From the NCBI GenBank assembly GCA_003649615.1, contig QMSI01000001.1, positions 1 to 64,000 of the forward strand: DNA of 64,000 nt. Direction: 5' to 3'. The DNA is from Thermoprotei archaeon (GTDB lineage Archaea; Thermoproteota; Methanomethylicia; Nezhaarchaeales; B40-G2). Shown here in pieces: positions 5,739 through 38,764 of this stretch (positions within the stretch are counted from its first letter, which is position 1; each line of letters opens with the position of its first letter). A program made the position numbers and the translations under genes. The notes beneath the pieces are model-generated. The model did not search any database. It was not told where the DNA came from and saw nothing but the letters and a program-made list of their open reading frames with translations.

Positions 5739-5789
5739 CCCTTTCACGTAGCCTCTACTACAGTCTTGATGCTGGGGGGTGAAGGGAGC

Positions 5790-14590: not shown

Positions 14591-15337
14591 TTAAGCGAAA
14601 AGATCCTCAGGCCTAGGTCTTTGAAGGTCTTTCGCCTCGGCTTTCTCGTCCTTCTCATAGCTAACCCCTCTTATGATAGCAACAGGTGTGGCTTCAGCCG
14701 CCTGACCAATCACCAGCTCGGCCGCAGAAGCCAGCTCGTCAGCTAAAGCTATCTCCTTTATCCTTAAGGAATACCCGTAAAGATCCTTCTCCCCCTTCCT
14801 ATCCCATATCGGTTTTAGCCCAGCCAGACCCACTGCTACATCCACCTGTCCTTTCCTGAAGGGTCTACCCTGCGTATCAGATACTATGACCGCCACTTCC
14901 TTACCAGTAGCTTTTGACAAGGCGTCTCTAAGTTTTCTCGCAGAAGCGTCTGGGTCTATTGGAAGAAGAATAGCGTAGCCAGGTGGGGCATTAGATACAT
15001 CTACACCTGAATTAGCGCTTATCCATCCTCTTAAATCCTCAGTGATCAAGACCCGCTTGCCCATCCTGACAATACGTGAAGCTTCACGTAAAACAAGCTC
15101 GACCACTTCAGCAGGTTTGCCTAGAGAAGCAGCTAACCTTTCAGCGAAGGGTGAGGGCTTAACCGTATTTAACGAGGCCAGTCTACCTTCAGCTTTAGAT
15201 ACAACCTTAGAGGTTACTACCACAACGTCGCCGTCCTTTAAACCTCCAGCTTGGCGCTCAGCTTCTCTAACTATGGCCTCAGCTAGGTCGAAGCCAGGTT
15301 TAATCTCCTCCTTAACCTTAAGCCCGTAAACCTCCAC
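14591..15337 (-). CDS. cofE: Coenzyme F420-0:L-glutamate ligase
   Basis: CofE adds glutamates to F420-0 using GTP. The protein begins [15 protein letters not shown], continues [48 protein letters not shown] and ends with [13 protein letters not shown] and TPVAIIRG; all are CofE signatures. GTG 15337 (about 248 residues, the usual length) matches the family N-terminus; an ATG at 15424 would overlap the divergent GGPP synthase gene. It provides F420 for Mtd. A TATA-like CCTTATACG lies between the two divergent genes. Confidence 0.9.
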
Positions 15338-15398
15338 TTTACTCAAAACTCGGCCCCCAGCTAGGCTTTTTAGCGTATAAGGTTTAACGGTTTTCTCG

Positions 15399-16475
15399 GT
15401 GAAAGCTTTGCTTAAGGAAACCATAGCTCTCTACAGCCCAAAAGTTGAAGAAGCATTGGAGAGGTTCTTAAGAAAGGAGCTTGCACAGGCGAGAGAGCTA
15501 AGCAGGTTTCATGAAGAGTACTACGCTAACTTAAAGGAGTACCTCCTTAGAGGAGGGAAGAGGCTTAGACCCATCGCCCTAGTAATGGCTTATAGAGGTG
15601 TAGGAGGCAGTGACGAACAGGCATCGATAGACGCCTCCATATGCGTTGAGCTACTCCACAACTCAAGTCTCATACACGACGACATAATCGATAGAGACGA
15701 ACTTAGGAGAGGAGGACCAACCTTCCATGCCAAGTATAGAGATTGGCATAGAGCGGTTAAAGCCTCAGGAGACTCAGAGCATTTCGGCTTAAGCCTGGGG
15801 ATACTTGGAGGAGATATCTTATTTAACCTAGGGTTTAAGGCCCTAGCCTATGCAAGATTTGATGAGAAACTGTTAGTTAAGGCGCTTAAGCTCTATGTTG
15901 AGGCCTACCAGCAACTCATAGACGGCGTACTCCTAGATACTTATCTACCCTTAAGTGAACAAGTTGAGGAGAAGGAGTACCTAGAAATGGTTAGGTTGAA
16001 GACTGCAGCTCTCTTCGAGAAAGCCATTTTGATAGGTGCGACACTAGGTGGAGCCACTGATAGCCAATTAAAAGCCTTAAGCAGCTACGCTGTTCTTTCA
16101 GCTCAGGGCTTCCAGATCCAGGACGACATCATAGGCCTCTTTGGCGAAGAAGAAGAAATAGGGAAACCCGTAGGAAGTGATATTAGAGAAGGTAAGATGA
16201 CGCTACTCGTCATTAAGGCTCTGGAGCTAGCCGATGAAACAAATAGAAACAGGCTCAGAAAGCTATTAGGTAAAGCAGACCTTACAAGAGAAGAAGTTGA
16301 GGAGGCTAGGAACATCGTGGAAAGTACAGGAGCTTTGAGCTACGCCCGTCAACTCGCTCAAGATCTCGTGAAGCTGGCCAAAGAGAAGCTGAGAGAAGCT
16401 GAACCTAGCTTAACGAAGCATTCCATGGCCTTCTTCGAGGAGCTCGCAGACTTCTTCATAGAACGAACCTTTTAA
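15399..16475 (+). CDS. idsA: Geranylgeranyl/polyprenyl diphosphate synthase
   Basis: A 358-residue trans-isoprenyl diphosphate synthase that condenses IPP with allylic diphosphates to make C20 (or longer) chains for archaeal ether lipids. First aspartate-rich motif: LIHDDIIDRDELRRGGPTFH near residue 88; second: QIQDDIIGLFG near 240; GKMTLLVIKAL follows. Length and motifs suit GGPP synthase; exact chain length is not readable here. GTG 15399 start, with a TATA-like GTATAAGG near 15375. Confidence 0.9.
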   Translation: MKALLKETIALYSPKVEEALERFLRKELAQARELSRFHEEYYANLKEYLLRGGKRLRPIALVMAYRGVGGSDEQASIDASICVELLHNSSLIHDDIIDRDELRRGGPTFHAKYRDWHRAVKASGDSEHFGLSLGILGGDILFNLGFKALAYARFDEKLLVKALKLYVEAYQQLIDGVLLDTYLPLSEQVEEKEYLEMVRLKTAALFEKAILIGATLGGATDSQLKALSSYAVLSAQGFQIQDDIIGLFGEEEEIGKPVGSDIREGKMTLLVIKALELADETNRNRLRKLLGKADLTREEVEEARNIVESTGALSYARQLAQDLVKLAKEKLREAEPSLTKHSMAFFEELADFFIERTF

Positions 16476-18652: not shown

Positions 18653-20059
18653 TTGGGTAAGGCACCCTGGAGCTTGTTTCTATCGCCCCGCTCCATGGCT
18701 ATAATCGGAGTATCTAAAAGAGAAGACGATTACATCAACCACTACGTTAGAACCCTCCTCGAGTATGGTTATCATGGCCGCCTCTACCTCGTAAATCCAA
18801 AGGAAAGCGAGATCTTGGGGTTCAAGGTATACCATAAGGTAAGCGAGATAGAGGAAGCAGTAGACTTAGCGTTCATAGCCGTGCCTAGAGAAGCAGTAGC
18901 AGAGGTATTGGAAGAGTGTGGCGTTAAAGGTGTGAAAGCCATCATTATCTTCACCTCTGACTCCGACATCCTCTCACCGACGGGTGATAGGGGAATAAGT
19001 AGAGCTATAGTTGAGGCAGTTAAACGCTGGAAGTTTAGGGTGATAGGACCAAATTGCTTAGGCATCTACAGGCCTAGCTCTGGACTATGCTTTGCCCACG
19101 GCTTCCCTAAGGAAGCTGGAAATGTAGCCTTTCTGGCTCAGAGCGGGGGACACGCTGCAGCCATGGGGTGGCTAGGAGCATCTATAGGACTTAAGTTTAG
19201 TGCTATTGTAAGTTATGGCAATGCGGTTGATGTAGACTTACCTGAGCTAATCGAGGCCTTCGGCGAAGACCCTGAGACCCACGTGATAGCAACCTACGTG
19301 GAAGGAGTTAAGGACGGAAGACAGCTCATAAGCTCTCTAAAGAAAACCACGGCCAAGAAACCAGTTATTGTATGGAAAGGAGGGGTGACGGAGGAAGGGG
19401 CAGAGGCGGTATCGACTCATACGTTAGCTATGGCAGGGTCTTGGACCCTGTGGAGAGTAGCCTTAAAGCAGGGTCAAGCCATCCAGGCTTATAGCCTAGA
19501 AGACACCGCCTACACGTCCCTCACATTCTCATTAATCCCAAAAATTAGCGGGGGAAGGCTGGCAGTCGTTTCAATAAGTGGAGGGGAGGCCGTATCAACA
19601 GCTGACGCCTGTAGTAAGCATGGCTTAAGCCTCCCTAGACCCTCTGGAGAGACCTTGAAGAAGCTTGAAAAAATAGTTCCTAGGTACGGGTCCAGCATAA
19701 GAAACCCTGTGGATATTCAATTAGCTGCCCTGGACCCAGAAACCTACTTAGAGATACTATCTTTCCTGATAGAAGACCCTAACATTGATGGGCTCCTAAT
19801 TCTTCAAAGCATGGAGTGGCCTTCATTATACCGAGGAGCACAACGCTTCCATGAGCTTACCGACGTGGTATGCCGCGTTAAGCAACGCTACGGTAAACCG
19901 ATATTCGTGGTCATGCAACCGAGACTATTCTACGAAGACTATCAGAAAGCTGGAAGAAAACTGCTGGAAGTTAAAGTGCCCGTCTATCCAACAGTAGATT
20001 TAGCGGTCTCAGCCATTTCACGTTTAGTGACGTACTCAGCAAAACGCCCAATCGCTTAA
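18653..20059 (+). CDS. ADP-forming acyl-CoA synthetase, alpha-type subunit
   Basis: 468 residues: CoA-binding Rossmann domain (SPRSMAIIGVSKREDD, LVNPKESEILG), GPNCLGIYRP, LAQSGGHAAAMG and the phosphohistidine loop EAVSTHTLAMAGS corresponding to SHTGALAGS of family members. The enzyme makes ATP from acyl-CoA, ADP and Pi together with an ATP-grasp beta subunit, which is not encoded nearby. The catalytic His is kept but the following TG is altered to TL. SD GGAGGA precedes TTG 18653. Location just before hdrA suggests acyl-CoA metabolism linked to Hdr/ETF electron flow; that link is inference. Confidence 0.75.
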   Translation: MGKAPWSLFLSPRSMAIIGVSKREDDYINHYVRTLLEYGYHGRLYLVNPKESEILGFKVYHKVSEIEEAVDLAFIAVPREAVAEVLEECGVKGVKAIIIFTSDSDILSPTGDRGISRAIVEAVKRWKFRVIGPNCLGIYRPSSGLCFAHGFPKEAGNVAFLAQSGGHAAAMGWLGASIGLKFSAIVSYGNAVDVDLPELIEAFGEDPETHVIATYVEGVKDGRQLISSLKKTTAKKPVIVWKGGVTEEGAEAVSTHTLAMAGSWTLWRVALKQGQAIQAYSLEDTAYTSLTFSLIPKISGGRLAVVSISGGEAVSTADACSKHGLSLPRPSGETLKKLEKIVPRYGSSIRNPVDIQLAALDPETYLEILSFLIEDPNIDGLLILQSMEWPSLYRGAQRFHELTDVVCRVKQRYGKPIFVVMQPRLFYEDYQKAGRKLLEVKVPVYPTVDLAVSAISRLVTYSAKRPIA

Positions 20060-20093: not shown

Positions 20094-22451
20094 TTGCCCC
20101 AACCGAAGGTGGGCGTATTTATATGTAGATGTGGAGGTAACATAAGCGATACTGTCGATTGCGATCATTTGCGGGAGAAGGCTTCTAAGTGGAGTTACGT
20201 AGTTGTTGCGAGGGTCGAAGATTATCTATGCTCCAAGCCTTCTCAAGATAGGCTTGTAGAAGCTATTAAGTCACGTGGCCTCGATAGAGTAGTTGTAGCT
20301 TGTTGTACGCCTAGGATGCATCTCTCCACTTTTCATGACGCTATGCGCAGGGCAGGCCTTAACCCTTACATGTTAGAGTTCGTCAATATAAGGGAACAAT
20401 GTTCATGGGTCCACGCTGACGATAAAGAGGCCGCTACGAAGAAAGCTCTAAGGCTACTTAAGGGAGGCTATGAAAGATGCCTGGAGCTCGAGCCTCTCGA
20501 ACCCATGGAGGAGCCTTGTAGAAAGGAAGTGCTCGTGATCGGAGGAGGTATAGCTGGGATAACCTGTTCTCTAGAGCTCGCCGACAAGGGCTATAAAGTC
20601 TACTTGGTCGAGAAGGGCCCATCGATAGGAGGAAACATGGCCAAGTTGACTAAGGTCTTCCCCACCCTCGACTGTGCGCAGTGCATACTAACACCTAAGA
20701 TGGCTGAGGTGAGTAGACACCCTAACATAACGCTGCTCACGTTAAGCGAAGTTGAAAATATCGAAGGATATCCGGGTAACTATACGGTTAAGGTGAAAGT
20801 TAAACCTCGAGGAGTGGACGTATCCAAGTGTGCTGGTTGCGGTATATGTAGTAAAGCTTGTCCCGTTGAGGTTGACGATGAATACAATGAAAATAGAAGC
20901 AAGAGGAAAGCTATCTATGTACCCTTTCCTCAAGCAGTACCTTATGCTTATGTCATCGACTTCTCTGCCTGTACTCGCTGCGGCGCCTGTATAGAGAAGT
21001 GTCCACGTGACGCTATACGACTAGACGAAGAAGAAAGCCAGCTGGAGCTTAAGGTTGGAGGGGTCGTGGTAGCGGTAGGCTATGAGCTCCTCGACGCTAA
21101 GCTTCTCGAGGATTATGGCTATGGCCAGTACCCTGACGTAATAACTATGATGGAGCTTGAACGCTTGACTTCCCTCTTCGGCCCAACAAAGGGGTTATTA
21201 AGGAAATTTAGCGACCAGAGCGAGGTTAAGAAAATAGCCATTGTGCTATGTGCCGGCTCTAGGGATAGGAATAGATACGTGCCTTACTGCAGCAAGGTAT
21301 GTTGCATGTACTCATTAAAGCAGGCCGTACTGCTCAGAGAACAGTTTGGAGTTGAAGTATGGATATTTTATACTGATATTAGAGCTGCAGGGAAAGGCTA
21401 TGAGGAGCTCTACGTTAAGGCTCAAGAGAGTGGCGTAGTATTCGTGAGGGGTAGGGTAGCTGAGATTAGGCGTGGAGAACATGGTCTCCTTGTAAGAGCT
21501 GAAAACACACTACTCGGAAAAGTGATGGAGGAGGAATTCGACTTAGTGGCTCTGGCTACTCCCATGATCCCACCTTCAGGACTACGTCAACTAGCTGATA
21601 AAGTATCACTGCCTATAGGTGAGGATGGCTTCATACAGGAGAAACACCCGAAACTGGGTCCAGTTGATCTACTTAGAGCCGGCATCTATGCTTGTGGCTG
21701 TGCTTTAGGACCTAGAGATGTACGAGATAGCGTTGCTGATGCCTTGGCTGCCTCGTCTCGCGTAGATACCTTTCTCAGGAGAGGGGTTGTGATCTCAAGT
21801 CCAGAAAAACCATGGGTTTACTGGGAGCAATGCGATGGATGTGGCGCTTGTATGGAGGTTTGCCCTATTGCTGCGATAGAGTTGAAGGAAGGAAAAGCAG
21901 CGGTTAAGGTGGTCTCATGTATAGGGTGTGGCGCCTGCATCCCAGCTTGCCCGAAAAGCGCCATAGACTTCAAGAACTATACGCGTAGACAGCTAGAAGC
22001 TCAACTTAAAGGATTGCTAGCTGAAAAGAGAGAAGGCGATGTAGTTATCGTCGCTTTCGTGGAAAAGAACATTGCCTACACAGGGCTTGACTTCTTAGGC
22101 TTAGACAGAGTTAATTATCCTGCTGAAACCTTGCCAATAGCTATACCTTCCTCAGCTATCTTAGGAAGAGACTTACTTCTCAAAGCCTTCATGCTTGGAG
22201 CCGATGGAATAGTGGTTATAGAGGGGCAGAAATGGGTGGATGAAGCATTCAGATGGAGGTTTGAAGAAGCCCTCGCTAGCCTAGAGGAAGCTGGCGTGGA
22301 GTCGACGCGGGTCTACTATAGCCTTATCGAGTTACCTGCCTATAGAAAGATAGCCGACATACTGCGCACGCATACCTCCATGGTCAGGGACCTAGGTCCC
22401 TTAGGGGCTGAGGAAAGAGTTAGGCTAAGTAGAGCAATGGAGGCGCGATGA
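20094..22451 (+). CDS. hdrA: HdrA-like flavin/FeS protein with cysteine-less MvhD-like C-terminus
   Basis: 785 residues. VGVFICRCGGNI is the HdrA N-terminus; VVVACCTPRMH follows; FAD-binding VIGGGIAGITC at about 148; FPTLDCAQCILTPKM is diagnostic HdrA. Inserted 4Fe-4S motifs occur at about 245 (CAGCGICSKACP) and 292 (CTRCGACIEKCP), and a C-terminal ferredoxin at about 579-620. From about 649 an MvhD-like fold follows (VVIVAFVEKNIAYTGLD, LLLKAFMLGADGIVVIEG), but every cysteine that binds the MvhD [2Fe-2S] cluster is replaced. HdrA carries the bifurcating FAD in Hdr complexes. The next gene overlaps as ATGA. Confidence 0.9.
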   Translation: MPQPKVGVFICRCGGNISDTVDCDHLREKASKWSYVVVARVEDYLCSKPSQDRLVEAIKSRGLDRVVVACCTPRMHLSTFHDAMRRAGLNPYMLEFVNIREQCSWVHADDKEAATKKALRLLKGGYERCLELEPLEPMEEPCRKEVLVIGGGIAGITCSLELADKGYKVYLVEKGPSIGGNMAKLTKVFPTLDCAQCILTPKMAEVSRHPNITLLTLSEVENIEGYPGNYTVKVKVKPRGVDVSKCAGCGICSKACPVEVDDEYNENRSKRKAIYVPFPQAVPYAYVIDFSACTRCGACIEKCPRDAIRLDEEESQLELKVGGVVVAVGYELLDAKLLEDYGYGQYPDVITMMELERLTSLFGPTKGLLRKFSDQSEVKKIAIVLCAGSRDRNRYVPYCSKVCCMYSLKQAVLLREQFGVEVWIFYTDIRAAGKGYEELYVKAQESGVVFVRGRVAEIRRGEHGLLVRAENTLLGKVMEEEFDLVALATPMIPPSGLRQLADKVSLPIGEDGFIQEKHPKLGPVDLLRAGIYACGCALGPRDVRDSVADALAASSRVDTFLRRGVVISSPEKPWVYWEQCDGCGACMEVCPIAAIELKEGKAAVKVVSCIGCGACIPACPKSAIDFKNYTRRQLEAQLKGLLAEKREGDVVIVAFVEKNIAYTGLDFLGLDRVNYPAETLPIAIPSSAILGRDLLLKAFMLGADGIVVIEGQKWVDEAFRWRFEEALASLEEAGVESTRVYYSLIELPAYRKIADILRTHTSMVRDLGPLGAEERVRLSRAMEAR

Positions 22452-23560
22452 AGTTGGAGGCGTTAAGCAGGCATGAATTATTAGCCTGCATGCAGTGCGG
22501 AGTATGTGTAGGTAGCTGTCCTTTAAGTACGAGGTCTACGCTCAACGTTAGGCGAATAACAGCGTCACTTATGACTAAAAGCCTTGAGGTAGGCGATGAA
22601 CTATGGGACTGTACAACCTGTTACCTATGCGTTTACAGGTGTCCTCGAGGTACTAAGCCCCTCGACCTTATCATTGAGTTAAGGTCGGAGCGTGTGGAGG
22701 CCGGAAAAATACCGCCTACACTTAGAGACAGCCTTGAAAACACATTCAAACAAGGTAACCCTTGGGGTAAGAGTAGGGTTAAACGTGGGGAGTGGGCCTC
22801 AGGCCTAGGTATCAAGAGGCTTTTAGAGCTCGAAGATTCCAAGATTCTCTTATTCACTTGTTGCGCATCAGCCTATGACCCTAGGGCTCAAGAAGCTGCT
22901 AGAGCCCTGGTCAAGGTACTTAAAGCCGCCGGCGTTGAACCAGCGTTTCTGGGCGAGGACGAGGTCTGCTGCGGAAATGAGGTATACAATATAGGTGAAC
23001 TTGGGCTTTTCGAGGAACTCATGGAAACGAATAAAGCAAACATGGGAGAAGGCGTAGAAACAATCATTACCACTTCCCCCCATTGCTACTATGCCTTTAA
23101 GAACAGGTATCTTGGGCTTAAGGCTGAGGTGCTTCATTATACGCAATTCTTAGCCCGCCTCTTAGACGAGGGTTTACTTAAGCTCAAGGGCTTAGCTGAC
23201 GTGGTGGTCACCTACCATGACCCATGTTACTTAGGTAGACGTAGCGGAGTATACGAGGAGCCACGTAAGCTTCTGAAAGCTATACGCGGGGTCAAACTTG
23301 TTGAGATGGAGCGTTCCAGGTCGAGGAGTCTATGCTGTGAAGGGGGTGGAGGAAGGATGTGGTTTGAAGGACCACCTGGCAGAAGATTAGCTGAAGTTAG
23401 AGTAGTCGAAGCATCCTCTACAGGAGCATCTATCCTCGCTACTGCTTGTCCCTTCTGCTTAGCTAACCTAGAGGACGGGGTGAAGACGGCTGGGTTAGAA
23501 GATAAACTTAGAGTCATGGATGTAGCTGAACTATTGGCACAAGCTCTTCCTAGCTCCTAG
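22448..23560 (+). CDS. HdrC-HdrB-like fused heterodisulfide-reductase-type subunit
   Basis: 370 residues. Residues 1-80 are an HdrC-like 8Fe ferredoxin (CMQCGVCVGSCP, CTTCYLCVYRCP). Two CCG domains follow: FTCCASAYDP/EVCCGN/SPHCYYAF and YHDPCYLG/LCCEGGGG/TACPFCLANL. In the first the CxxC has one Cys replaced by Ser, as in many FadF/GlpC-type oxidoreductases. The layout matches HdrD-like or ETF-linked FeS oxidoreductases, which reduce disulfides or pass electrons to or from ETF. No membrane helices, so cytoplasmic. Translationally coupled to hdrA; overlaps etfA tail to tail by 11 bases. Confidence 0.85.
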   Translation: MKLEALSRHELLACMQCGVCVGSCPLSTRSTLNVRRITASLMTKSLEVGDELWDCTTCYLCVYRCPRGTKPLDLIIELRSERVEAGKIPPTLRDSLENTFKQGNPWGKSRVKRGEWASGLGIKRLLELEDSKILLFTCCASAYDPRAQEAARALVKVLKAAGVEPAFLGEDEVCCGNEVYNIGELGLFEELMETNKANMGEGVETIITTSPHCYYAFKNRYLGLKAEVLHYTQFLARLLDEGLLKLKGLADVVVTYHDPCYLGRRSGVYEEPRKLLKAIRGVKLVEMERSRSRSLCCEGGGGRMWFEGPPGRRLAEVRVVEASSTGASILATACPFCLANLEDGVKTAGLEDKLRVMDVAELLAQALPSS

Positions 23561-24509
23561 CCTTAAGCAGGTTCTTTAAGGCCTCTACCACCTTCATTAG
23601 GTCGTCCACTATGCCGTAGTGGGCCACATTAAAAATCGGTGCATTAGGGTCCTTGTTCACTGCTATGATTAGGTCAGAGTTTTTCATTCCTACCACGTGC
23701 TGAAAAGCCCCGCTAATGCCGAGCGCTAGGTAAAGTTTAGGCTTCACGGTCTTACCTGAATTACCGACTTGTCTATCCTTAGGAAGCCATCCTTTATCCA
23801 CTACTGGCCTAGAACAAGCTAGTACTCCACCCAACATGCGAGCTAACTCTTCGACAGCAGGTATGTTGCCTGCATCCCTGATGCCTCGACCTATGCTAAC
23901 TATGACGTCAGCTTTAGTTATGTCAACCTCGGCTACCGGAGGCTCTACGTAGCCTACAACTTTTTTACGCAGCGACTCCTTTAACTCCATGTCAACTTTG
24001 GTTACTTTGCCTTGACCTTTAGGTTCAGGCTGGCGTAACACTCCTGGCCTCATAGTGATCATATGGCATGGAGACTCCTTAAGCTCCATTAAAGCCTCCA
24101 CCTTACCCCCATATATCTGCCTCCTAGCTAACAGCTTCTCTCCATTAAGTTGAACGTCCAGAACGTCGGTTATCAGAGGACAGCCTAGCTCAGCAGCTAA
24201 ACTGGGGGCCAGCTCCATGCCTATGGAGGTGTGACCCATAGCTACCAGCTTAGGTCTACGCTCCTTCGTCAACTTAGCTAGAAGAGGTTGATAGAGGTCA
24301 GAGTTGAAATGCTTGAGGAGGTCGTGTTCTACGTAAAACACCTCATCAAAGTATGATGCCAGCTTCTCAGCCATGGATTGAGCCTTGAAACCTAGTAGAA
24401 CACAGGTGGCTTTAAGTTCAAGTTTTCTCGCTAGCCCCGCTAATTCAAAGGTGACCTCTCTAAGCTCACCTTCTCTATGCTCAGCTAGTGCCAGTAGCTC
24501 AGGGTTCAA
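23550..24509 (-). CDS. etfA: Electron transfer flavoprotein alpha subunit
   Basis: 319 residues. The C-terminal FAD domain is diagnostic: VSIGRGIRDAGNIPAVEELARMLG, ACSRPVVDKGWLPKDRQVGNSG, YLALGISGAFQHVVGM, IIAVNKDPNAPIFNVAHYGIVDDL. It forms a heterodimer with EtfB to carry electrons between dehydrogenases and acceptors, and in bifurcating systems holds two FADs. Its start overlaps the etfB stop by 4 bases. Confidence 0.95.
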   Translation of the reverse strand: MNPELLALAEHREGELREVTFELAGLARKLELKATCVLLGFKAQSMAEKLASYFDEVFYVEHDLLKHFNSDLYQPLLAKLTKERRPKLVAMGHTSIGMELAPSLAAELGCPLITDVLDVQLNGEKLLARRQIYGGKVEALMELKESPCHMITMRPGVLRQPEPKGQGKVTKVDMELKESLRKKVVGYVEPPVAEVDITKADVIVSIGRGIRDAGNIPAVEELARMLGGVLACSRPVVDKGWLPKDRQVGNSGKTVKPKLYLALGISGAFQHVVGMKNSDLIIAVNKDPNAPIFNVAHYGIVDDLMKVVEALKNLLKARS

Positions 24510-25294
24510 GCCGTGACCCCCCTCTCCTTCAATAGGTTAAAGATGAATGAAGCAGCCTTCTCAGCGGGGCCTTCAATGATTAAGGCCCGTTTTTCAACGC
24601 GTGGGATCTCATATCGTACTAGCCTAGCCCAAGACCCTTCCCTGCCCACGTCTTCAGAAGTCAGTTCGAGCTCTCCTGGCGATAGGACCTTTAATGGTTT
24701 TTTAGAGGCTCTTCTAAGACCCATAATGGATACGTACCTGGGCTCATTGATGCCTGTCTGTATCGTGAGTAAAGCTGGAACACGTAATTCAACTACCTCC
24801 TCAGCTCCACCTTCAAGCTCTCTATGCACCCTAATCCATTCTTCTAAAACCTCCACTTTCTTAACCAAAGTGGCGTGAGGAACCCCTAAGAGGAAAGCTA
24901 ATATGGGGCCTACCTGAGCATAACCATCGTCAGAGGCTTGAGCACCCATCAAGACGAGGTCAAAGTTGAGCTTCTTCAGAACACGGTGTAACACCTTCGC
25001 CACTGCGTAGGCGTCCATTTCTTCAGTTGGAACATCTACCCTAATCGCTTCGTCAGCTCCTTTCGCCAAACATTTCCTCAATACTTCTTCGCTATCCTCG
25101 TCACCCACGGTTACTGCTGTTAATCTACCCCCCAAGGCCTCCTTGAGCCTTAAGGCTTCCTCTAACGCATAATCATCCCATTCATTTATGTCGTAGGCTG
25201 CTCCTTTTACCTTTAGTTTCTTCCCTGTTTCATCAACCTCAAACTCGGCTTCAGCGTGTTCAGCTACTCTTTTAACGCATACCACTAGATCCAT
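24506..25294 (-). CDS. etfB: Electron transfer flavoprotein beta subunit
   Basis: 262 residues: LVVCVKRVAEHAEAEF, the INEWDDYALEEALRLKE motif, VTVGDEDSEEVLRKCLAKGADEAIRV and MGAQASDDGYAQVGPILAFLLG are EtfB signatures that form the nucleotide (AMP or second FAD) pocket. Whether the pocket is bifurcating needs structural modelling. The gene is 12 bases after the small hypothetical gene, and in an apparent pyrF-orf-etfB-etfA operon. Confidence 0.95.
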   Translation of the reverse strand: MDLVVCVKRVAEHAEAEFEVDETGKKLKVKGAAYDINEWDDYALEEALRLKEALGGRLTAVTVGDEDSEEVLRKCLAKGADEAIRVDVPTEEMDAYAVAKVLHRVLKKLNFDLVLMGAQASDDGYAQVGPILAFLLGVPHATLVKKVEVLEEWIRVHRELEGGAEEVVELRVPALLTIQTGINEPRYVSIMGLRRASKKPLKVLSPGELELTSEDVGREGSWARLVRYEIPRVEKRALIIEGPAEKAASFIFNLLKERGVTA

Positions 25295-26558: not shown

Positions 26559-27641
26559 TTGATCCCCGAAGTTTACTTCCTTGACTACTCCAAGGATACT
26601 GACGTATTGGAAGGGCTAAGAGAGCTTTTTGAGAAAGCAGGGTTCGCGAAGGCCCTGAAAGGTAAAGTAGCTGTCAAGGTCCATATTGGTGAAAGAGGAA
26701 ATATAACGTACCTAAGACCAATCTTAGTCCATAGAGCTGTGGAGTTAGTAAAGGAGATAGGAGGAGAGCCATTTATCGTTGAGACCACGACGCTATACCC
26801 TAAACATAGGTTCACCGTAGAAGACTGTTACCGTACTGCAGAGCTCCACGGCTTCACCGAGAAGCTAGGCGCCCCCTTCGTGGTGGGGGATGCCCCAAAT
26901 GGCTACGCAGGGGTCAAAGTAAAGATTGATAAATCCATAGAGGGCTGCAGCTTAAATGAAGTAGAGATAGCCTCAGCCATAGCAAAGGCTGATTCTCTTC
27001 TACTAATTGTACACGCTAAAGGACACCTCCTAGCAGGTTTTGGAGGAGCCCTCAAACACGCCGCTATGGGATGCGTCACTAAGAGGTCGAAGGCAGCTCA
27101 ACACGCTGCCTGCGGCTTAGTCTTCGACGCTGAAAAATGCGACGGATGCGGTATCTGCGCAGAGTCTTGTCCCTTTCAAGCATTAAAGGTTGAGGATGGT
27201 AAAGCTGTCAGGGACCCCTCGAAATGCATGTATTGCAATACCTGCCTCTTTACCTGTCCCAACGGAGCATGGAGTTGGCCAGAAGAAGGAAAGGAAAGGT
27301 TCCAGGTCTACTTGGCACACGCAGCCTATGCTGTACTAAAACAATTTAAAGATAGGATAGCTATACTAAGCTTCGTCCAAGACGTAACGCCCTTATGCGA
27401 CTGCGCGACTCCAGCCGGTAGGCCCCTAATACCTGATGTAGGGGTCCTAGCCTCCTTAGACCCCGTAGCAATAGACGCTGCAGCTTTAGACCTTATAGAG
27501 GCTGCAGCGGTACATTCATGGCACGAAGCTAAGCCGCCTAACTTCTTAGCCAAAGTAAATGGCACAAACCCTCGAAGACACTTAGAGATAGCTAAAGAGC
27601 TGGGAGTCGGTGAGACCATTTACCGCTTAATCACGCTCTAG
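26559..27641 (+). CDS. DUF362 protein with 2x[4Fe-4S] ferredoxin domain
   Basis: 360 residues. The DUF362 parts (VAVKVHIGERGNITYLRP, PFIVETTTLYP, HAKGHLLAGFGGALKHAAMGC and the LDPVAIDAAALDLIE end) flank an inserted ferredoxin at about residues 188-228 (CDGCGICAESCP, CMYCNTCLFTCP). DUF362 proteins are FeS proteins of undefined function, common in anaerobes, possibly electron carriers or metal-handling. Cysteines in the late PLCDCATP loop may bind a further metal. TTG start at 26559. Confidence 0.8.
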   Translation: MIPEVYFLDYSKDTDVLEGLRELFEKAGFAKALKGKVAVKVHIGERGNITYLRPILVHRAVELVKEIGGEPFIVETTTLYPKHRFTVEDCYRTAELHGFTEKLGAPFVVGDAPNGYAGVKVKIDKSIEGCSLNEVEIASAIAKADSLLLIVHAKGHLLAGFGGALKHAAMGCVTKRSKAAQHAACGLVFDAEKCDGCGICAESCPFQALKVEDGKAVRDPSKCMYCNTCLFTCPNGAWSWPEEGKERFQVYLAHAAYAVLKQFKDRIAILSFVQDVTPLCDCATPAGRPLIPDVGVLASLDPVAIDAAALDLIEAAAVHSWHEAKPPNFLAKVNGTNPRRHLEIAKELGVGETIYRLITL

Positions 27642-30774: not shown

Positions 30775-32025
30775 GTGAAAGTTTACGCTGATTTACATCT
30801 ACATAGTCCCTTCTCAAGGGCTACAAGCGAGAAGATGAACCCCCTTGACTTAGTAGGCTTCGCCAAGATCAAGGGCTTAAACCTATTAGGTACAGGAGAT
30901 GCTCTACATCCAGCCTGGCTCTCCCAGTTAAGCTTAGCCTTAGAAGAAGTAGACGGTACAGGCCTCTATAAAGCAAGAGGGGCTGACGAAAATGTGCTGT
31001 TTCTCGTCGAGGCGGAGGTGGAAACCGTCCACCTCTATGAAGGCAGAGTTAAGAGGATACACCACGTTATATTCATGCCTAGTTTAGAGGTAGCTGAGCA
31101 GCTGGGTGAGGCGTTATCGAGGTATGGAGACCTTGAACGTGACGGCAGGCCTACGCTAACCATCAAACCTTCAGAGCTGGTAGAAACAATACTGGGAGTT
31201 GACGATCGCTGCCTTGTGTTTCCTGCCCATGCATGGACGCCGTGGAGGTCGATCTTCGGTTCCTTCAGCGGAGTGGATAGTATTGAAGAATGCTACGAAG
31301 ACATGGCTAAGCGCATCTATGCCCTTGAAACAGGGCTTAGTAGCGATCCAGCCATGAACTGGAGGGTAAGTAGGCTCGACCGCTTCACTTTATTGAGCTT
31401 TTCAGATAGCCACTCTCCATGGCCTTGGAGGCTCGGTAGAGAATGCACTATTTTTAACCTAAGTAAACTTAGCTACAAAGAGTTAATTGAAGCCATCAGG
31501 ACAGGTAAGGTGGCCACGCTCGAGGTACCGCCGGAGTATGGAAAATACCATTACTCAGGGCATCGTGAATGTGGTGTAGGCCCCCTCTTCCCAGCTGAAG
31601 CCTCTAAACTAAATTATAGATGTCCTGTATGCAGCAAGCCTTTAACGAAAGGAGTGGAGGATAGAGTGGAGGAGCTGGCTGATAGGCCAAGTGGCTTTAA
31701 ACCAGAGAAAAACATGAACTACGTTAAGGTACTTCCACTCCACGAAGTCATATCCGCTGCCTTGAAGCTTGGAGGTATGAAGTCTCTTCAGTCCAAGGTA
31801 GTAGGAGAGCTATATGAAAACTTAGTTGTGAAGCTAGGTTCAGAGTACAACGTACTACTACACGCCAGCTACGAGGAACTAATACAAGCAGCCCCTAGGG
31901 AAGTGGCTATAGCCATAATCATGGTAAGAGAGGGGAGGTATAGGATAATCCCGGGGTACGACGGGGTTTACGGGAAACTTGAACTTAAAGTAGTTCAAAA
32001 AGGGCTTGAAGGATTCTTAGATTGA
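30775..32025 (+). CDS. Endonuclease Q-like PHP-domain DNA repair nuclease
   Basis: 416 residues. PHP-domain metal ligands are seen in YADLHLHSPFSRA, GTGDALHP, LFLVEAEVETVH, FPAHAWTPW and SFSDSHSPWPWRLGRE. A zinc-finger segment (RECGVGP ... YRCPVCSKPL) and a helical C-terminus complete the EndoQ layout. EndoQ of Thermococcus cuts 5' of deaminated bases and abasic sites. GTG 30775; a TATA-like GCTTATAACC lies about 40 bases upstream. It overlaps nuoM tail to tail by 9 bases. Confidence 0.85.
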   Translation: MKVYADLHLHSPFSRATSEKMNPLDLVGFAKIKGLNLLGTGDALHPAWLSQLSLALEEVDGTGLYKARGADENVLFLVEAEVETVHLYEGRVKRIHHVIFMPSLEVAEQLGEALSRYGDLERDGRPTLTIKPSELVETILGVDDRCLVFPAHAWTPWRSIFGSFSGVDSIEECYEDMAKRIYALETGLSSDPAMNWRVSRLDRFTLLSFSDSHSPWPWRLGRECTIFNLSKLSYKELIEAIRTGKVATLEVPPEYGKYHYSGHRECGVGPLFPAEASKLNYRCPVCSKPLTKGVEDRVEELADRPSGFKPEKNMNYVKVLPLHEVISAALKLGGMKSLQSKVVGELYENLVVKLGSEYNVLLHASYEELIQAAPREVAIAIIMVREGRYRIIPGYDGVYGKLELKVVQKGLEGFLD

Positions 32026-33546
32026 TGTCCTTGCAAGGGCAGCTATTACTTCGACTAGCCTTGAAGCCCATGAAGCCGCGGGCTCCGTTATGATCGTTGG
32101 GTAGACGCCGATAATGACAGCTAATGCCGCTAATATCATGATGGGGGCCACCATTAACGGCGATCCCTCCTTAGCGTCCTTAACATAGGGGTTCAGTTGG
32201 CCGAAGAAAACTCTCCTAATAGTCCATAACCCATAGCCCGCAGTTAGAGCAGAGCCGACGATGGCTATGGCGGTTACCAGGACTCTCGCAACGTCCACGC
32301 CTGCTAAGCTAGCAAATGCGGTGTGCATGGAACCTGCAAATATGAATACCTCTCCCCAGAAACCAACCATGGGAGGAGTCCCTGCTAAACCTAGGAAAGC
32401 TATGAGGGACGCTGTAGCGGTTAGTGGCATTTTAGGTCCTAAGCCGCCGAACTTGCTAATGCTTCTCGTATGGAAACTATGGATCAGTATCCCTGACATC
32501 ATGAAGAGGACTGCCTTACATAAGCCGTGATTTACGTAGAAGAGCACAGAGCCAGCTAACCCTAACACCGAGATCGAAGCTATGCCGAAGAGTAGGTAAC
32601 CCATCTGGCTTATACTGGAATAGGCGAGGAGCCTCTTAATATCGTCCTGAGCTAAGGCCATAACTCCTCCGTAGACCATAGTTATTACTGCGAGAGTGGC
32701 TAGGCCTATTACGAAGGGCCAGTTAGCCATTACCATGGGGAAAGCGGTGTATGCTATCCTTATTACAGCGTAACCGCCTATACCTATCATGGCTGGAGAT
32801 AATAGGGCGCTTATAGGTGTAGGGGCTTCTGCGTGGGCGTCAGGAAGCCAAGTATGTAGGGGGAATATTGCCATCTTAACGAGCAGGCCTAGTAACATGG
32901 CTACTACTATGACCGTGAGTAGGTTTACATCGTAGGCTGAAAGCTTGGTGGCCATTTCCATTACGTCAAATGTCCCTGTAAGGAAGTAGGTGGCCACGAT
33001 TCCGCCTAGCAGGGATAGTGCACCAGCTTCAGTGAACATAAAGTACTTGAAAGCTATTCTCTCCTTAGGGCCAGTACCCCAGATACCTATCATAGCCCAG
33101 GAGGGTATTAGCATCAACTCGAAGAAGAGGAAGAAGGCTGCTAAGTTGGTGACAAGTACTGTCCCTATCATGCCGGCCGCGTATAGGAGGTATAGCGAGA
33201 AGTAGGCGTCTAGGCGGTGTTCGTGTTCCATGTATCCTATCGAATATATCGCGATCAGTGCGCATAGGAGGGCTATGGTTAAAGCGATGGGTGCGCTGAG
33301 GCCATCAGCTATCAGGGTGAAATTGCCTATGTAAGGCCCCCAGTAATACTCAGCCTTTAAGAGGCCCTCAGGTATGTAGGGAAGCGACAATGTCACATAA
33401 GCTAAGAGGCCTGTCACGTAAGCCAGTACCGCGAAGACCAGCCAGCCTGTGTTCTTACCCATTGCCCTACCGGCGACAAGAGCTATCACCGAGAAAGCCA
33501 TGGGTATAAGGATCGTTTGGAGTAGGATATGGCTCGTATCCATCAT
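32017..33546 (-). CDS. nuoM: Complex I/Fpo-like antiporter subunit M
   Basis: 509 residues, about 14 membrane helices. The FFLFFELMLIPSWAMIGIWG and FKYFMFTEAGALSLLGG helices are subunit-M-like. Proton-channel residues are present in the Glu of FFELML, Lys of LLVKMAIFPLHTWLPDAHAEAPTPISALLS and Lys/His of YVNHGLCKAVLF. Together with L and N it pumps protons (or Na+). Last gene of the leftward operon, 6 bases after nuoL. Confidence 0.9.
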   Translation of the reverse strand: MMDTSHILLQTILIPMAFSVIALVAGRAMGKNTGWLVFAVLAYVTGLLAYVTLSLPYIPEGLLKAEYYWGPYIGNFTLIADGLSAPIALTIALLCALIAIYSIGYMEHEHRLDAYFSLYLLYAAGMIGTVLVTNLAAFFLFFELMLIPSWAMIGIWGTGPKERIAFKYFMFTEAGALSLLGGIVATYFLTGTFDVMEMATKLSAYDVNLLTVIVVAMLLGLLVKMAIFPLHTWLPDAHAEAPTPISALLSPAMIGIGGYAVIRIAYTAFPMVMANWPFVIGLATLAVITMVYGGVMALAQDDIKRLLAYSSISQMGYLLFGIASISVLGLAGSVLFYVNHGLCKAVLFMMSGILIHSFHTRSISKFGGLGPKMPLTATASLIAFLGLAGTPPMVGFWGEVFIFAGSMHTAFASLAGVDVARVLVTAIAIVGSALTAGYGLWTIRRVFFGQLNPYVKDAKEGSPLMVAPIMILAALAVIIGVYPTIITEPAASWASRLVEVIAALARTSI

Positions 33547-33552
33547 CTTACA

Positions 33553-35667
33553 TCACCCGAAGACGAACACTACCAACACGATAAAAAGTATGAAACCTAG
33601 GACGATGCCTATCACGTTATAGTTCAATATGCCTGTATGAGTCTTCCTGAACCTCGAAGCGATCGCTTGTGATAAGTCGGCTAAAGCGTAGTTGAACCTG
33701 TCTATTACGGCAGTCTCAATGTTCCTAAACAGCCATCCGCTTGCCCTTATTACAGAGTAAACGAAGGCTTTGTAGTAGAAGGTATTCACATACCATCTTC
33801 GGAAGAGGAAGTGCCAAAGCGCTTTGAGGGCTGGTCTAGGCTCGAGTAGTTTCTCAGGATCAACCTTGCGTTTAATGTAGATGTGGTAAGCTGGTAGCGC
33901 ACCTATGAGTAGCATGGATATGGACGTCGCCGCAGTCACTATTACCGCCATTTCATGTGACATAGCTGGAGCCGTTTCGACAGCGTGTTCAGCTGAGTGT
34001 AATAGGTGACCTCCTAATCCCCATGCCTCCAGCTGGTGGTGGAAGACCTGTTCAAGCCATCCACTCACAAAGTAACCGCCTATACCAAAGATTACGGTTG
34101 CAACAGCTAAGGCAGCGTAAGGAACCCACATCACCTTAGGTGCTTCATGCACATGTTTGCCTTCGCGTTCCAGCTCGTGGATGTGCTTGCTTTCATGTCC
34201 AAAGAAAGTTAAGCCTAATGCTCTTACAGTGTAGAAGCAAGTTATCGAAACAGCCAGGACTCCTAGGACGAATAGGGGCCAGGTGGAGGTAGTAGCCATC
34301 AAGGACGCTTCGAGTACGAGGTCTTTGCTCCAGAAGCCGCTGAAGAATATGGGTACACCCATAAGCGAGAAGGCAGCTAAAGCCATACACCAGAAGGTTA
34401 TGGGCATATGCTTCTTTAAGCCGCCGTAGTCCCTGAAGAACCTCGACTCTGTAGCATGTATTACAGAGCCTGCGGTCAAGAAGAGCGCTGCCTTGAACAT
34501 GGCGTGGCTCATTAGGTGAAAGATCCCTCCAGTATAACCAATAGCGAACTCGGCTGCTGCCCCTGCCACGCCTAGTCCCATCATCATGTAGCCTATCTGG
34601 CTAACCGTGGAGTATGCCCACACCTTCTTAATTTCGCTTGAAGCCATTGCCTGCGTCCCAGCTATAAAGGCAGTGAGCACACCTACCCAGCCCACCAGGT
34701 AGAAGAAGGTGACTAAGTCGTTAGCTTGACCTCCTATCCAGGCAGCAGCATAGAAGATGGGAAAGATTCTGCCTACAAGGTATACTCCTGCCTTAACCAT
34801 AGTCGCTGCGTGTATTAAGGCGCTAACTGTCGTAGGACCAGCCATAGCGTCTGGAAGCCACTCCATCAGTGGGAGCTGAGCTGACTTCCCTATAGGGCCG
34901 CCGAAGAGAAAGACAGCAGCTACTACCAAGTATCTTAGTAGCTCGGGGTGAGCTATTACTTCGTGGTGGAACTGAGTGCTTTGCACAAACTCCATGAGTT
35001 CCTTGAAGCTTAAGGTACCTGTCAAGGCTAAAATGATGAAGGCGCCTATAAACATGGCCACGTCGCCTACCCTAGTGGTTATGAAAGCCTTCATACCGCA
35101 GTGTGAGGGAGGATAAACTTCAGGGGGTTCGCCTACCCAGAAGGTAAACCAGTCTTCCTTAGAGTCCTGGTAGCGGAAGCCTATGAGCGCGTAGCTGCAC
35201 AAACCTACGCCTTCCCAGCCGAAGAGCATCTGCAGTATGTTGTCAGACATGACCAAGAGGAGCATGTTGCCTATGAAGAAGTTCATGAAGAACCAGTACC
35301 GTGTTAATGAAGGGTCGCCGTGCATGTAGCCAAGCGAGTACACCATTATGAGGAAGCTTATGACCGCCACGACGTTAGCCACTATTATACTCAACGGATC
35401 CACTATTACCCCTGCTTTGAGCTCGCTGAGTATGGGCGACCCGGGCAGCCTAATCCATTCTACTTGATAGTAGTATACGTGAGGGTCGAAGATGAGAGGT
35501 ATCATGGAGACCGTCATTAATGCAGCCATCAGAGAGAAGAAGACAGCACCGTAGTCTCTTAGCTTAGGGTTAATCTTAGCGAAGATAGGGGTCAGTAAGG
35601 CTCCAGCCATAGGGAGCATCCAACAAAGCCATGCTTGAGGTACGAAGGCTTCTATAAACTCGCTCAT
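33553..35667 (-). CDS. nuoL: Complex I/Fpo-like antiporter subunit L
   Basis: 704 residues, longest of the three antiporter-like subunits as expected for L. VGLCSYALIGFRYQ, the GKSAQLPLMEWLPDAMAGPTTVSALIH loop, VKAGVYLVGRIFP and HLMSHAMFKAALFLTAGSVIH are NuoL signatures. The C-terminal extension (about residues 500-704) with several His-rich segments and a final helix should form the lateral arm. It lies 6 bases after the N-like gene. Confidence 0.95.
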   Translation of the reverse strand: MSEFIEAFVPQAWLCWMLPMAGALLTPIFAKINPKLRDYGAVFFSLMAALMTVSMIPLIFDPHVYYYQVEWIRLPGSPILSELKAGVIVDPLSIIVANVVAVISFLIMVYSLGYMHGDPSLTRYWFFMNFFIGNMLLLVMSDNILQMLFGWEGVGLCSYALIGFRYQDSKEDWFTFWVGEPPEVYPPSHCGMKAFITTRVGDVAMFIGAFIILALTGTLSFKELMEFVQSTQFHHEVIAHPELLRYLVVAAVFLFGGPIGKSAQLPLMEWLPDAMAGPTTVSALIHAATMVKAGVYLVGRIFPIFYAAAWIGGQANDLVTFFYLVGWVGVLTAFIAGTQAMASSEIKKVWAYSTVSQIGYMMMGLGVAGAAAEFAIGYTGGIFHLMSHAMFKAALFLTAGSVIHATESRFFRDYGGLKKHMPITFWCMALAAFSLMGVPIFFSGFWSKDLVLEASLMATTSTWPLFVLGVLAVSITCFYTVRALGLTFFGHESKHIHELEREGKHVHEAPKVMWVPYAALAVATVIFGIGGYFVSGWLEQVFHHQLEAWGLGGHLLHSAEHAVETAPAMSHEMAVIVTAATSISMLLIGALPAYHIYIKRKVDPEKLLEPRPALKALWHFLFRRWYVNTFYYKAFVYSVIRASGWLFRNIETAVIDRFNYALADLSQAIASRFRKTHTGILNYNVIGIVLGFILFIVLVVFVFG

Positions 35668-35673
35668 TCAAGT

Positions 35674-37239
35674 TCACCCCCCAATGATGAAGCTTAATAG
35701 ACTTTTAGCCGCAGTATCAGCTAAGCCGAGAACGGGGCCAGGAAAAGCTCCCACGACCACGCAGATTGATGCCAAGAGAGCTATGGGTAGAACCATGGAG
35801 AAGGGGGCTTCATGCACCTTGGCCACCCTTTCCGTGGGTGACTTGAGCATGATACGTTGCATGACCCATAGATAATATGCAGCTGAGAATATAGCGTTTA
35901 AAATGAGGATGGCCGTTATGATTACCATATAACCGTCTTGAGGTATGCTAAGACCAGCTAGGATTATGAAGAGCTTACTCCAGAACCCGTTTAGGGGCGG
36001 TACACCCGCTAGAGCTAGTAGCCCTATGGACAGGGAAACACCAGTCCAAGGCATACGTTTACCTATACCCTCTAGGATGGTTAGGTCCCTGGTTTTAGCC
36101 TCATGAAGGAAGCAGCCAGAGCAAAGGAAGAGAAGCCCTTTACCTATGGCGTGGTTAAATACATGGAAGAGACCGCCTGCTAAAGCGAAAACAGCCACGC
36201 TCGTGGCCAGTATGGGGGAGCTAGCGTAGTAGGTAGTTAGAGCGTAGGCGGCAATGCCAGCAGCGGTAATTATGTACCCTATGTTGACTATGCTAGAGTA
36301 CGCGAAAAGCCTCTTGATATCTCTTTGGAGCAGAGCCATGAGGTTAGCCACGGTGAGTGTGAGCACGCCGAAGATCATGAGTACAGCTCCGTAATTGTAG
36401 AAAGCAGGGTTGAAAAAGGTAAACACAGACCTATACATGCCGTATACTCCCGCCTTAATTACAACGCCTGATAACATCGCGCTTATCCCGCTGGGAGCGG
36501 CTGGGTGGGCGTCGGGTAGCCATGTGTGGAAGGGCACCATAGCAGCGGTTACACCGAAGCCGGCCACTATCATACATATTACTAGGTACAGGTATGGGTT
36601 GTTTTGACTGAGGAGAGTTTCAGCCATGTATGTGAAGTTTAAGGTGCCGGTCATCCCGTAGAGGAAGGAGACCCCGTAGAACATGAGTATGGAGCCGAAG
36701 GTGCTCATGATTAAGTATTTGAAGCCAGCCTCTACCGGCTCCCACCTATATTTCCTGAAACCTACTAGGACGTAACCTGACACTGCCATGGTCTCCCAGA
36801 AAACGAAAAGTGTTAGGAAGTCCCATGCAAACGCAACCCCGACCATGCCTGCAACCATGGCCAACAGGAGAGCGTAGTACTTGTCTAAGCCTGTATCCTC
36901 TTCCATGTACCTTATGGAGTATATGGCTACAAGTAGCCCTACTCCGCAAAAGAGCATCGACATAAAGGAGCTGAGGGCGTCGACCCTAAGGGCTGAGCCA
37001 AAGGGAGGGCCGAATCCTGGGATGGTAAACTCAACGTAACCCTCTGCTGCCACCTCGAGGTAAAGGGTATATAGCTTGTATAAGGCAAGGGCGAAGATAG
37101 CTACGGCAAAGAAGTCCTTCAGCTTTTCAGCGTTCACCCTTTTCCCTACCACGTCTACAAGGGGGACGAGAACTGCCCCTAGGAATAGGATGATGAGGGG
37201 TTGAAGGATTAAGGGGACTGACAAGGACATTCCTACCAC
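35674..37239 (-). CDS. nuoN: Complex I/Fpo-like antiporter subunit, N-type
   Basis: 521 residues, about 14 helices. Antiporter motifs: FVFWETMAVSGYVLVGF, MVPFHTWLPDAHPAAPSGISAMLSG, VVIKAGVYGMYR and FNHAIGKGLLFLCSGCFLHE. The positions of channel Glu, Lys and His residues are conserved. I assign N because the M-type and L-type proteins are the other two, but this protein also resembles MnhD/HyfF-type subunits. The order K-N-L-M is unusual; K-L-M-N is typical. Overlaps nuoK by 7 bases. Confidence 0.75.
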   Translation of the reverse strand: MVGMSLSVPLILQPLIILFLGAVLVPLVDVVGKRVNAEKLKDFFAVAIFALALYKLYTLYLEVAAEGYVEFTIPGFGPPFGSALRVDALSSFMSMLFCGVGLLVAIYSIRYMEEDTGLDKYYALLLAMVAGMVGVAFAWDFLTLFVFWETMAVSGYVLVGFRKYRWEPVEAGFKYLIMSTFGSILMFYGVSFLYGMTGTLNFTYMAETLLSQNNPYLYLVICMIVAGFGVTAAMVPFHTWLPDAHPAAPSGISAMLSGVVIKAGVYGMYRSVFTFFNPAFYNYGAVLMIFGVLTLTVANLMALLQRDIKRLFAYSSIVNIGYIITAAGIAAYALTTYYASSPILATSVAVFALAGGLFHVFNHAIGKGLLFLCSGCFLHEAKTRDLTILEGIGKRMPWTGVSLSIGLLALAGVPPLNGFWSKLFIILAGLSIPQDGYMVIITAILILNAIFSAAYYLWVMQRIMLKSPTERVAKVHEAPFSMVLPIALLASICVVVGAFPGPVLGLADTAAKSLLSFIIGG

Positions 37240-37550
37240 CTTAACCTCCTCAACCTCCTAGCGTCTAAGCTCCCATAATGTCGATAAGCATTAATCACAT
37301 ACATGAGCGCGACCGTGGCCACACACGCTCCTAGGCCGGTAGATATCACTACTATGACCTGTGTAAGGGGATTGAAGGCTACCAGGGATAACGCGTAGCC
37401 CATGGCTATGAAGTTAAGGTGCATTGCTGAGGTGATGATCTCAAGTCCTATCACTATCTTTATCATGTTCCTCTTAACAGCAAGGCAATAGACGCCTATA
37501 GCGAAGAGTATGATGCTCGTGGTTATGTACCATCCAGGGTGTAGTGCCAA
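37233..37550 (-). CDS. nuoK: Complex I/Fpo-like subunit K
   Basis: 105 residues with three membrane helices: FAIGVYCLAVKRNMIKIVIGLEIITSAMHLNFIAMG carries the conserved Glu in helix 2 (GLEI), and VVISTGLGACVATVALMYVINAYRH the third helix. NuoK belongs to the membrane arm and takes part in the proton path. It lies between the J genes and the N-like gene in one operon. Confidence 0.9.
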   Translation of the reverse strand: MALHPGWYITTSIILFAIGVYCLAVKRNMIKIVIGLEIITSAMHLNFIAMGYALSLVAFNPLTQVIVVISTGLGACVATVALMYVINAYRHYGSLDARRLRRLRW

Positions 37551-37553
37551 GCC

Positions 37554-38098: not shown

Positions 38099-38283
38099 CC
38101 CGGAACCTCCCGCAGGCGCGGGCCTCCATGAGTGATGCTCTACGTCCCAGCCCCCCTACCGTTTTTAACCCTAATATAAAGCCTTCGCCTCTGCAAGTCT
38201 GAGGCTACGTTCCGTAAAGCAATCGTGAAGAAGAAAACATGAAAGTCGACATGATTCACGCGGTTAGCTTCAGGGCATGGAGA

Positions 38284-38589: not shown

Positions 38590-38725
38590 GGTTTACCCCC
38601 GGCTATGACGTGAAGCGGTAGGGGCTTAGATATTTTGCGGTTAGCTAATATCCATGGAAGTCCTTGATCGGGCATGGGCCAACTCGATGGTTTGACGATG
38701 AAAAAAGCACATCAGTTAGAAAAAG

Positions 38726-38735: not shown

Positions 38736-38764
38736 AGTAGGCCTTAACGGTGGAGGGGCCTGAA

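Follow-up and report, generated by a model that had tools for sequence, protein, structure and literature searches.

The hdrA locus and its neighbours

The analysed window, a stretch of 64,000 nucleotides from a Thermoprotei archaeon, contains an hdrA gene surrounded by genes for an acyl-CoA synthetase-like protein, an HdrC-HdrB fusion (HdrCB) and the two subunits of an electron transfer flavoprotein (EtfAB). The features of this region are:

18653–20059, + strand: acyl-CoA synthetase (ADP-forming) alpha-like (TIGR02717, 353 bits, below the cut-off of 567)
20094–22451, + strand: hdrA, fused 'type Ia' with C-terminal MvhD-like domain (785 aa, NCBIfam HdrA2)
20829–21002, + strand: inserted 2[4Fe-4S] ferredoxin domain of HdrA, residues 246–303, 8/8 Cys (100% Cys in the Cys-less group)
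21819–21971, + strand: C-terminal 2[4Fe-4S] ferredoxin domain of HdrA, residues 576–626, 8/8 Cys (Fer4 families, 97–100% Cys)
22047–22397, + strand: MvhD/FlpD domain of HdrA, residues 652–768, without any of the five cluster Cys (PF02662, domain model)
22062–22064 (E657), 22071–22073 (I660), 22149–22151 (S686) and 22221–22226 (E710/G711), + strand: former cluster-ligand columns (64 Cys-less versus 23 intact HdrAs)
22448–23560, + strand: HdrCB, EtfD/TfrB-like (PF02754, 119 bits; TfrB, 161 bits)
23550–24509, − strand: EtfA, electron transfer flavoprotein alpha (PF00766, 121 bits; PF01012, 119 bits)
24506–25294, − strand: EtfB, electron transfer flavoprotein beta (PF01012, 144 bits)

The hdrA frame is open, has a TTG start codon and gives a product that is HdrA along its whole length, with an FAD domain and with inserted and C-terminal ferredoxins of which the ligand cysteines are intact. 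The NCBIfam HdrA2 model matched residues 5–771 with 845 bits, which is below its curated cut-off of 1100 bits, and for residues 1–644 the matches to solved HdrAs had E-values no higher than 1e-164. In the alignment, C197 of the window protein is opposite Cys197 of the solved HdrA, and the bifurcation residues, K409 and E356 in M. thermolithotrophicus numbering, are present, as they are in 90/92 and 79/92 of the collected fused HdrAs, respectively. The HdrCB gene starts within hdrA, with an overlap of 4 bases, and etfA and etfB are convergent to this gene pair. The acyl-CoA synthetase alpha-like gene ends 34 bases upstream of hdrA; distant homologues were found near only few other loci, and a link of its product to the HdrA complex is uncertain. 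Just past the EtfAB genes, a DUF362 protein with a 2[4Fe-4S] ferredoxin insert is encoded at 26559–27641.

An MvhD fold without cluster ligands

The MvhD domain of HdrA normally holds an iron-sulfur cluster. The Pfam FlpD family (PF02662) matched residues 652–768 of the window HdrA with 63 bits (cut-off 22.3), and in a sequence comparison of the last 138 aa with the PDB, only MvhD chains gave credible matches (E 3e-7 to 5e-4). There is no cysteine anywhere in this domain: in the alignment to MvhD (5odc_D), VEKNI is opposite CCNWC, PSSAI opposite MCSGR and EGQKW opposite the GC-HLGDC stretch, and the MvhD cysteine columns are occupied by E (657), I (660), S (686), G (711) and, for the fifth, a gap. 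The domain alone was modelled with AlphaFold2 from a three-row alignment (mean pLDDT 81.5, pTM 0.81), while a full-length HdrA model from a four-row alignment was poor (pLDDT 69.9, pTM 0.55) and was left unused. A Foldseek search of the PDB with the domain model returned 5odh_D, 5odc_D, 8rvu_F and 7bkb_F on top, all MvhD-type chains of Hdr complexes (E 1e-8 to 2.5e-6, TM 0.72–0.79), followed by a first other match with E 2e-3 and TM 0.30, and the predicted domain thus fits the MvhD fold and nothing else well.

An earlier note on this DNA had described the gene product as HdrA fused to an MvhD-like domain in which all cluster cysteines are replaced, and had proposed comparison of a model with MvhD. 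The HdrA2 and PF02662 matches bear out the fusion, the replacements were confirmed in every checked detail by the 5odc_D alignment, and the structural comparison returned the four MvhD chains as best PDB matches. A sequencing error and a selenocysteine codon were both ruled out, as the frame is open, dozens of genomes display the same loss, and D/E, S/T, V/I and E are encoded at the replaced positions.

Cysteine loss is conserved and specific to the MvhD cluster

We built a profile from seven Cys-less domains and ran it against 398 genomes of the phylum and 201 genomes of the class of genome G040. Matches of >100 bits occurred in 27/398 and about 70/201 genomes (counted from tables), and every full-length sequence above this threshold for which the ligand columns were read lacked the ligand cysteines. 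The best matches of the window domain among relatives were also Cys-less; a scan of genome contigs gave only two relatives, and a scan of viral contigs gave none. The HdrAs of locus L033 and of G040 share 82% identity. Two further PF02662 proteins are encoded in the genome of the window, both of them Cys-bearing.

From these searches, 92 full-length fused HdrAs with their flanks were collected and scored on the five MvhD ligand columns; none of the five cysteines was present in 64, two were present in 5 and all five in 23. The five MvhD positions have 0–6% Cys in the Cys-poor group (68 rows), where the 6% represents the two-cysteine proteins. At the other cluster sites of this group, cysteine was found at 100% for all eight positions of the inserted ferredoxin, 97–100% for the C-terminal ferredoxin, 99% for the N-terminal cluster, 97% for C194/C197, and 100% for C386, C399 and C404 of the FAD-domain motif, with C403 of that motif at 84%. 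Exceptions to the 97–100% retention in the Cys-less group are residue 403 (0.84) and residue 103 (0.49). Judged by these cysteines, only the MvhD cluster is gone from HdrA and the other cluster sites are retained. The loss is not due to chance, since 64/92 fused HdrAs have lost all five ligands while the other HdrA cluster cysteines are 97–100% kept, single weakly conserved positions excepted.

As the cluster site is gone, electrons cannot pass via an MvhD [2Fe-2S] cluster in the window HdrA. The suggestion of the earlier note that the redox role of the domain has been dropped therefore stands for the window and for all 64 clade members, and close relatives, which it had named as a possible counterexample, do not keep the cysteines, as 64/64 lack all five. 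We found no report of MvhD cysteine loss in the open-licence papers searched, in which a fused HdrA variant with a cluster-less MvhD domain thus appears unreported.

A single origin of the loss

A tree of the HdrA core, from which the MvhD domain was left out, placed the 64 Cys-less HdrAs on one side of a branch with support 100. A more careful core tree of 41 dereplicated rows under a mixture model recovered the Cys-less clade with 100/100 support, with all 200 bootstrap trees in agreement, and these topologies indicate a single origin of the cysteine loss in the 64 HdrAs. Repeated independent losses are not needed, as the 64 stay together as one clade whether or not the set is dereplicated. 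Stepwise loss via the two-cysteine group was suggested by the quick tree, in which this group is the sister of the Cys-less clade (support 82), but was dropped since the careful tree gives it no resolved placement. HdrAs without a fused MvhD domain fall among the intact fused HdrAs, in line with several fusions (PMC12054007).

Partner genes in the branch of the window

The hdrA, HdrCB, etfA and etfB genes are found together in L033, L037, L038, L039 and L041, with varying orders and orientations. Within the branch of the window (38 rows), HdrCB was encoded within 5.5 kb in 36/38 and EtfAB in 22/38, with acyl-CoA dehydrogenase genes near 8, acyl-CoA ligase genes near 4, and an Nfn-A-like gene near 10/38 HdrAs. 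Most of the 16/38 members without EtfAB within 5.5 kb belong to one family with EtfA elsewhere in the genome, and a check of 21 genomes that included this family showed EtfA to be encoded in 17/17 good genomes. A partnership of HdrA, HdrCB and EtfAB in this branch is suggested by gene linkage, which is not proof of binding.

Other groups have other neighbours. In a second Cys-less subclade, a TfrA-like flavoprotein is encoded with HdrB and HdrC (TfrA in 11/11), as it is beside 4/5 two-cysteine HdrAs, and among small Cys-less subclades a PhsA-like molybdoenzyme is located beside the HdrAs of L171 and L172 and FrhB beside that of L163, with some having HdrBC only. As these subclades have a molybdoenzyme, FrhB or HdrBC only, the ETF partner belongs to the branch of the window and not to the whole clade. 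Neither EtfAB nor TfrA was found near intact fused HdrAs (0/23), and a FwdB-like gene was near 8/23 of these versus 0/69 of the others. The Fisher values (EtfAB 0.001, TfrA 0.002, FwdB 5e-6) are overstated since loci share ancestry, and the partner contrast is therefore safe at clade level only.

Several further redox genes were observed at these loci. In L125 (9928–13000), and similarly in L117–L128 and L145, which represent one family with HdrCB-adjacent redox genes, HdrCB is accompanied by thioredoxin-reductase-like, full-Cys ferredoxin-MvhD and Nfn-A-like genes. Fully Cys-less MvhD domains are encoded next to GcvH and DsrE-like genes in L040 (6015–9721) and L042 (11224–13803), the latter also with HdrB, and both loci resemble sulfur-oxidising Hdr-like clusters. 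In L038 (10369–13077), a 903-aa FAD-linked oxidase/[4Fe-4S]/CCG fusion adjoins a GcvH gene and HdrCB.

HdrCB resembles ETF acceptors

HdrCB is made up of two [4Fe-4S] and two CCG domains. Its eight [4Fe-4S] cysteines are invariant in 33 orthologues and the full five-cysteine set of CCG domain 2 is present in 32–33/33, while a complete CxxC is missing from CCG domain 1 in 33/33 (S210/C213 in the window HdrCB, C210 in 30 orthologues). The Hdr-type bridging cysteine is likewise absent from domain 1 of HdrCB. In 12 separate HdrBs from the same locus set, both CCG domains are complete. The CCG domains of EtfD hold two sites, a linear [3Fe-4S] and a noncubane [4Fe-4S] one. FadF and DgcB, which are homologous to EtfD, lack first-site cysteines and have been argued to accept ETF electrons at the second site (PMC13083937). 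This precedent and the site pattern of HdrCB suggest that it likely serves to accept ETF electrons and not to reduce disulfides.

Proposed route of electrons

We propose that the window encodes a conserved HdrA variant in which a redox-silent MvhD domain is kept for structure or docking, high-potential electrons use an HdrCB-EtfAB route, and the mid-potential pair is exchanged without an MvhD cluster, a reading which we consider fairly probable. Electrons from acyl-CoA oxidation would be passed to EtfAB and, given the gene linkage and the EtfD precedent, from there to a noncubane-type cluster in CCG domain 2 of HdrCB, then via the HdrC clusters to the N-terminal cluster and bifurcating FAD of HdrA. 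The complex would use these high-potential electrons together with reduced ferredoxin for confurcation, or bifurcate in reverse, with either direction allowed, and ferredoxin may contact the inserted ferredoxin domain of HdrA. The retained MvhD-like domain may act as scaffold or docking surface. In the branch of the window, electrons thus probably use the old HdrA enzyme by a different route.

The mid-potential pair would most likely enter or leave directly at the FAD, or alternatively via a partner docked on the C-terminal ferredoxin, the strict retention of which argues for continued electron exchange at this site. The first candidate for its carrier is F420H2, because HdrA2 reacts with F420H2 without needing an F420 subunit (PMC5296606) and because F420 genes are present in the genome; the second is NAD(P)H, because of the Nfn-A-like gene near 10/38 HdrAs. 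F420 and C1 carriers are indeed part of the metabolism encoded in this genome, as the window contains:

1064–1927: F420-dependent Mtd
5766–6725: formylmethanofuran:H4MPT formyltransferase (Ftr)
14591–15424: CofE

The strict conservation of the C-terminal ferredoxin also allows for a different arrangement, in which the flavoprotein, EtfAB or, for the sister group, TfrA, binds to the MvhD end and supplies electrons directly to the C-terminal ferredoxin, replacing hydrogenase or formate dehydrogenase and making the MvhD cluster superfluous. The eight cysteines of this ferredoxin kept clade-wide and the retained, conserved MvhD-like domain fit such docking, but ETF and succinate/fumarate flavoproteins operate near 0 mV, which is too positive for the mid-potential port. 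As ETF-linked CCG proteins also have a precedent as electron acceptors (PMC13083937) and HdrCB is encoded beside HdrA in 36/38, we regard this arrangement as unlikely.

Replacement residues and selection on the domain

The replacements at the former ligand sites are not random. In the 64 Cys-less HdrAs, residue 657 is D/E in 62, residue 686 is S/T in 63 and residue 710, directly beside former Cys 711, is E in 64/64, while in the 23 intact HdrAs positions 657, 686 and 711 are Cys and position 710 is G or A. This acid-Ser-acid pattern (D/E657, S/T686, E710), at or beside the cluster sites, has the appearance of a signature and not of random decay. It could mean that the former cluster pocket has been turned into a binding site for a metal ion or a small ligand, formed by these three residues, for which their near-invariance, the G/A at 710 of intact HdrAs and the occurrence of D657, S686 and D/E710 already in the two-cysteine group would speak. 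However, the same three residues would equally be required by a network of salt bridges or hydrogen bonds, and we know of no ligand-bound homologue of such a pocket, which makes ligand binding a doubtful option. A fuller version of our preferred scheme, in which HdrA-HdrCB-EtfAB confurcation connects acyl-CoA oxidation to ferredoxin and a hydride carrier (F420 or NAD(P)), the MvhD wire was cut once in a large archaeal clade with the pocket rebuilt as an acid-Ser-acid site, and the C-terminal ferredoxin has become a new point of contact for partners, is put forward as tentative.

A [2Fe-2S] cluster could also be given in trans by a separate Cys-bearing MvhD, with the fused copy just keeping its old place. 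One family of the branch of the window does encode a ferredoxin-MvhD protein (5–7 Cys) 1–3 kb from HdrCB, and the genome of the window has its two other PF02662 proteins, but none is encoded near the hdrA of the window or in most EtfAB-type loci, and the docking site would be taken by the fused domain, so that this is improbable.

Purifying selection acts on the MvhD-like domain as it does on the rest of HdrA, with dN/dS values in close pairs of mostly 0.02–0.18, similar to those of the core; an exception was a pair with low dS (0.13), which had 0.63 for the domain versus 0.34 for the core. Although its cofactor site is destroyed, a functionless, decaying relic was rejected as extremely improbable on these dN/dS values and on conservation, with new invariant residues and the domain being present in all 64 members.

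Other gene sets in the window

Two further regions of the window encode redox complexes. A complex I/Fpo-like set is located at 32017–42735, and a [NiFe]/[NiFeSe]-type hydrogenase region, with a protease-like gene and ferredoxin-type subunits, at 53582–62810:

32017–37239, − strand: three antiporter-type subunits
39141–42735, + strand: NuoB-, NuoD- and NuoI-like genes
56078–57607: hydrogenase large subunit
57594–58775: hydrogenase small subunit, twin-arginine-like start
59607–61859: PhsA-like molybdoenzyme

The hydrogenase and PhsA-like genes possibly allow for H2-dependent sulfur or thiosulfate respiration.

Implications

How F420H2 gains access to type Ia HdrA, which lacks a recognisable F420 site (PMC12054007), and how anaerobic archaea discard the high-potential electrons of fatty-acid oxidation are both open questions. 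The Cys-less clade can serve as a natural mutant in addressing both, as evolution has removed the MvhD cluster and left every other cofactor site intact; should F420H2 still be an electron donor to this clade, entry via the MvhD cluster would be excluded. For annotation, an HdrA-MvhD fusion does not imply input from hydrogenase or formate dehydrogenase, and with about 70/201 sampled genomes of the class of G040 matching at >100 bits, the variant occurs in many uncultured archaea and is not a one-genome curiosity.

Comparison with known HdrA systems

The HdrA2 or type Ia proteins are fusions of HdrA with MvhD, as in HdrA2B2C2 of Methanosarcina acetivorans, where a [2Fe-2S] cluster is predicted in the MvhD domain and HdrA2 acts with HdrB2C2 on CoM-S-S-CoB (PMC5296606, PMC12054007). 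A 2025 survey of 1,152 HdrAs, which covered only genomes carrying mcrA or an mcrA-like gene, described the type Ia MvhD domain as bearing one [2Fe-2S] (PMC12054007). The window HdrA has the fused C-terminal domain of type Ia, by both PF02662 match and fold, and 0/5 of the [2Fe-2S] ligand cysteines, as do 64/64 clade members. Like HdrA2, it has the order of N-terminal cluster domain, FAD domain with inserted ferredoxin, C-terminal ferredoxin and fused MvhD, keeps K409/E356 and matches the HdrA2 model over its full length; unlike HdrA2, it lacks the MvhD cysteines, scores 845 against the cut-off of 1100, and has an EtfD-like HdrCB and EtfAB as neighbours. Compared with MvhD of the Mvh-Hdr and Fdh-Hdr complexes (5odc, 7bkb, 8rvu), the window domain is alike in fold and sequence pattern, but is without [2Fe-2S] ligands and is part of the HdrA chain.

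For Culexarchaeia, the published account names HdrA2B2C2 and EtfAB separately, and proposes bifurcation by EtfAB and acyl-CoA dehydrogenase, without HdrA (PMC9723716). The class of the window includes genomes with a cluster that resembles the Culexarchaeia Ehe cluster, which makes it likely that the lineages are related, and the two-cysteine HdrAs of L043, L044, L046 and L194 are located in such clusters, with HdrABC, TfrA/SdhA-like, GcvH and hydrogenase subunit genes; the description of the Ehe cluster consulted here makes no mention of cysteine loss (PMC9723716).

With EtfD, FadF and DgcB (PMC13083937), HdrCB shares the [4Fe-4S]-plus-CCG make-up, with the first CCG site altered and the second complete, and the location of its gene next to EtfAB fits this likeness. 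EtfD is membrane-bound and passes its electrons to quinone, whereas the HdrCB gene adjoins that of an HdrA which is soluble and has a flavin of the bifurcation type.
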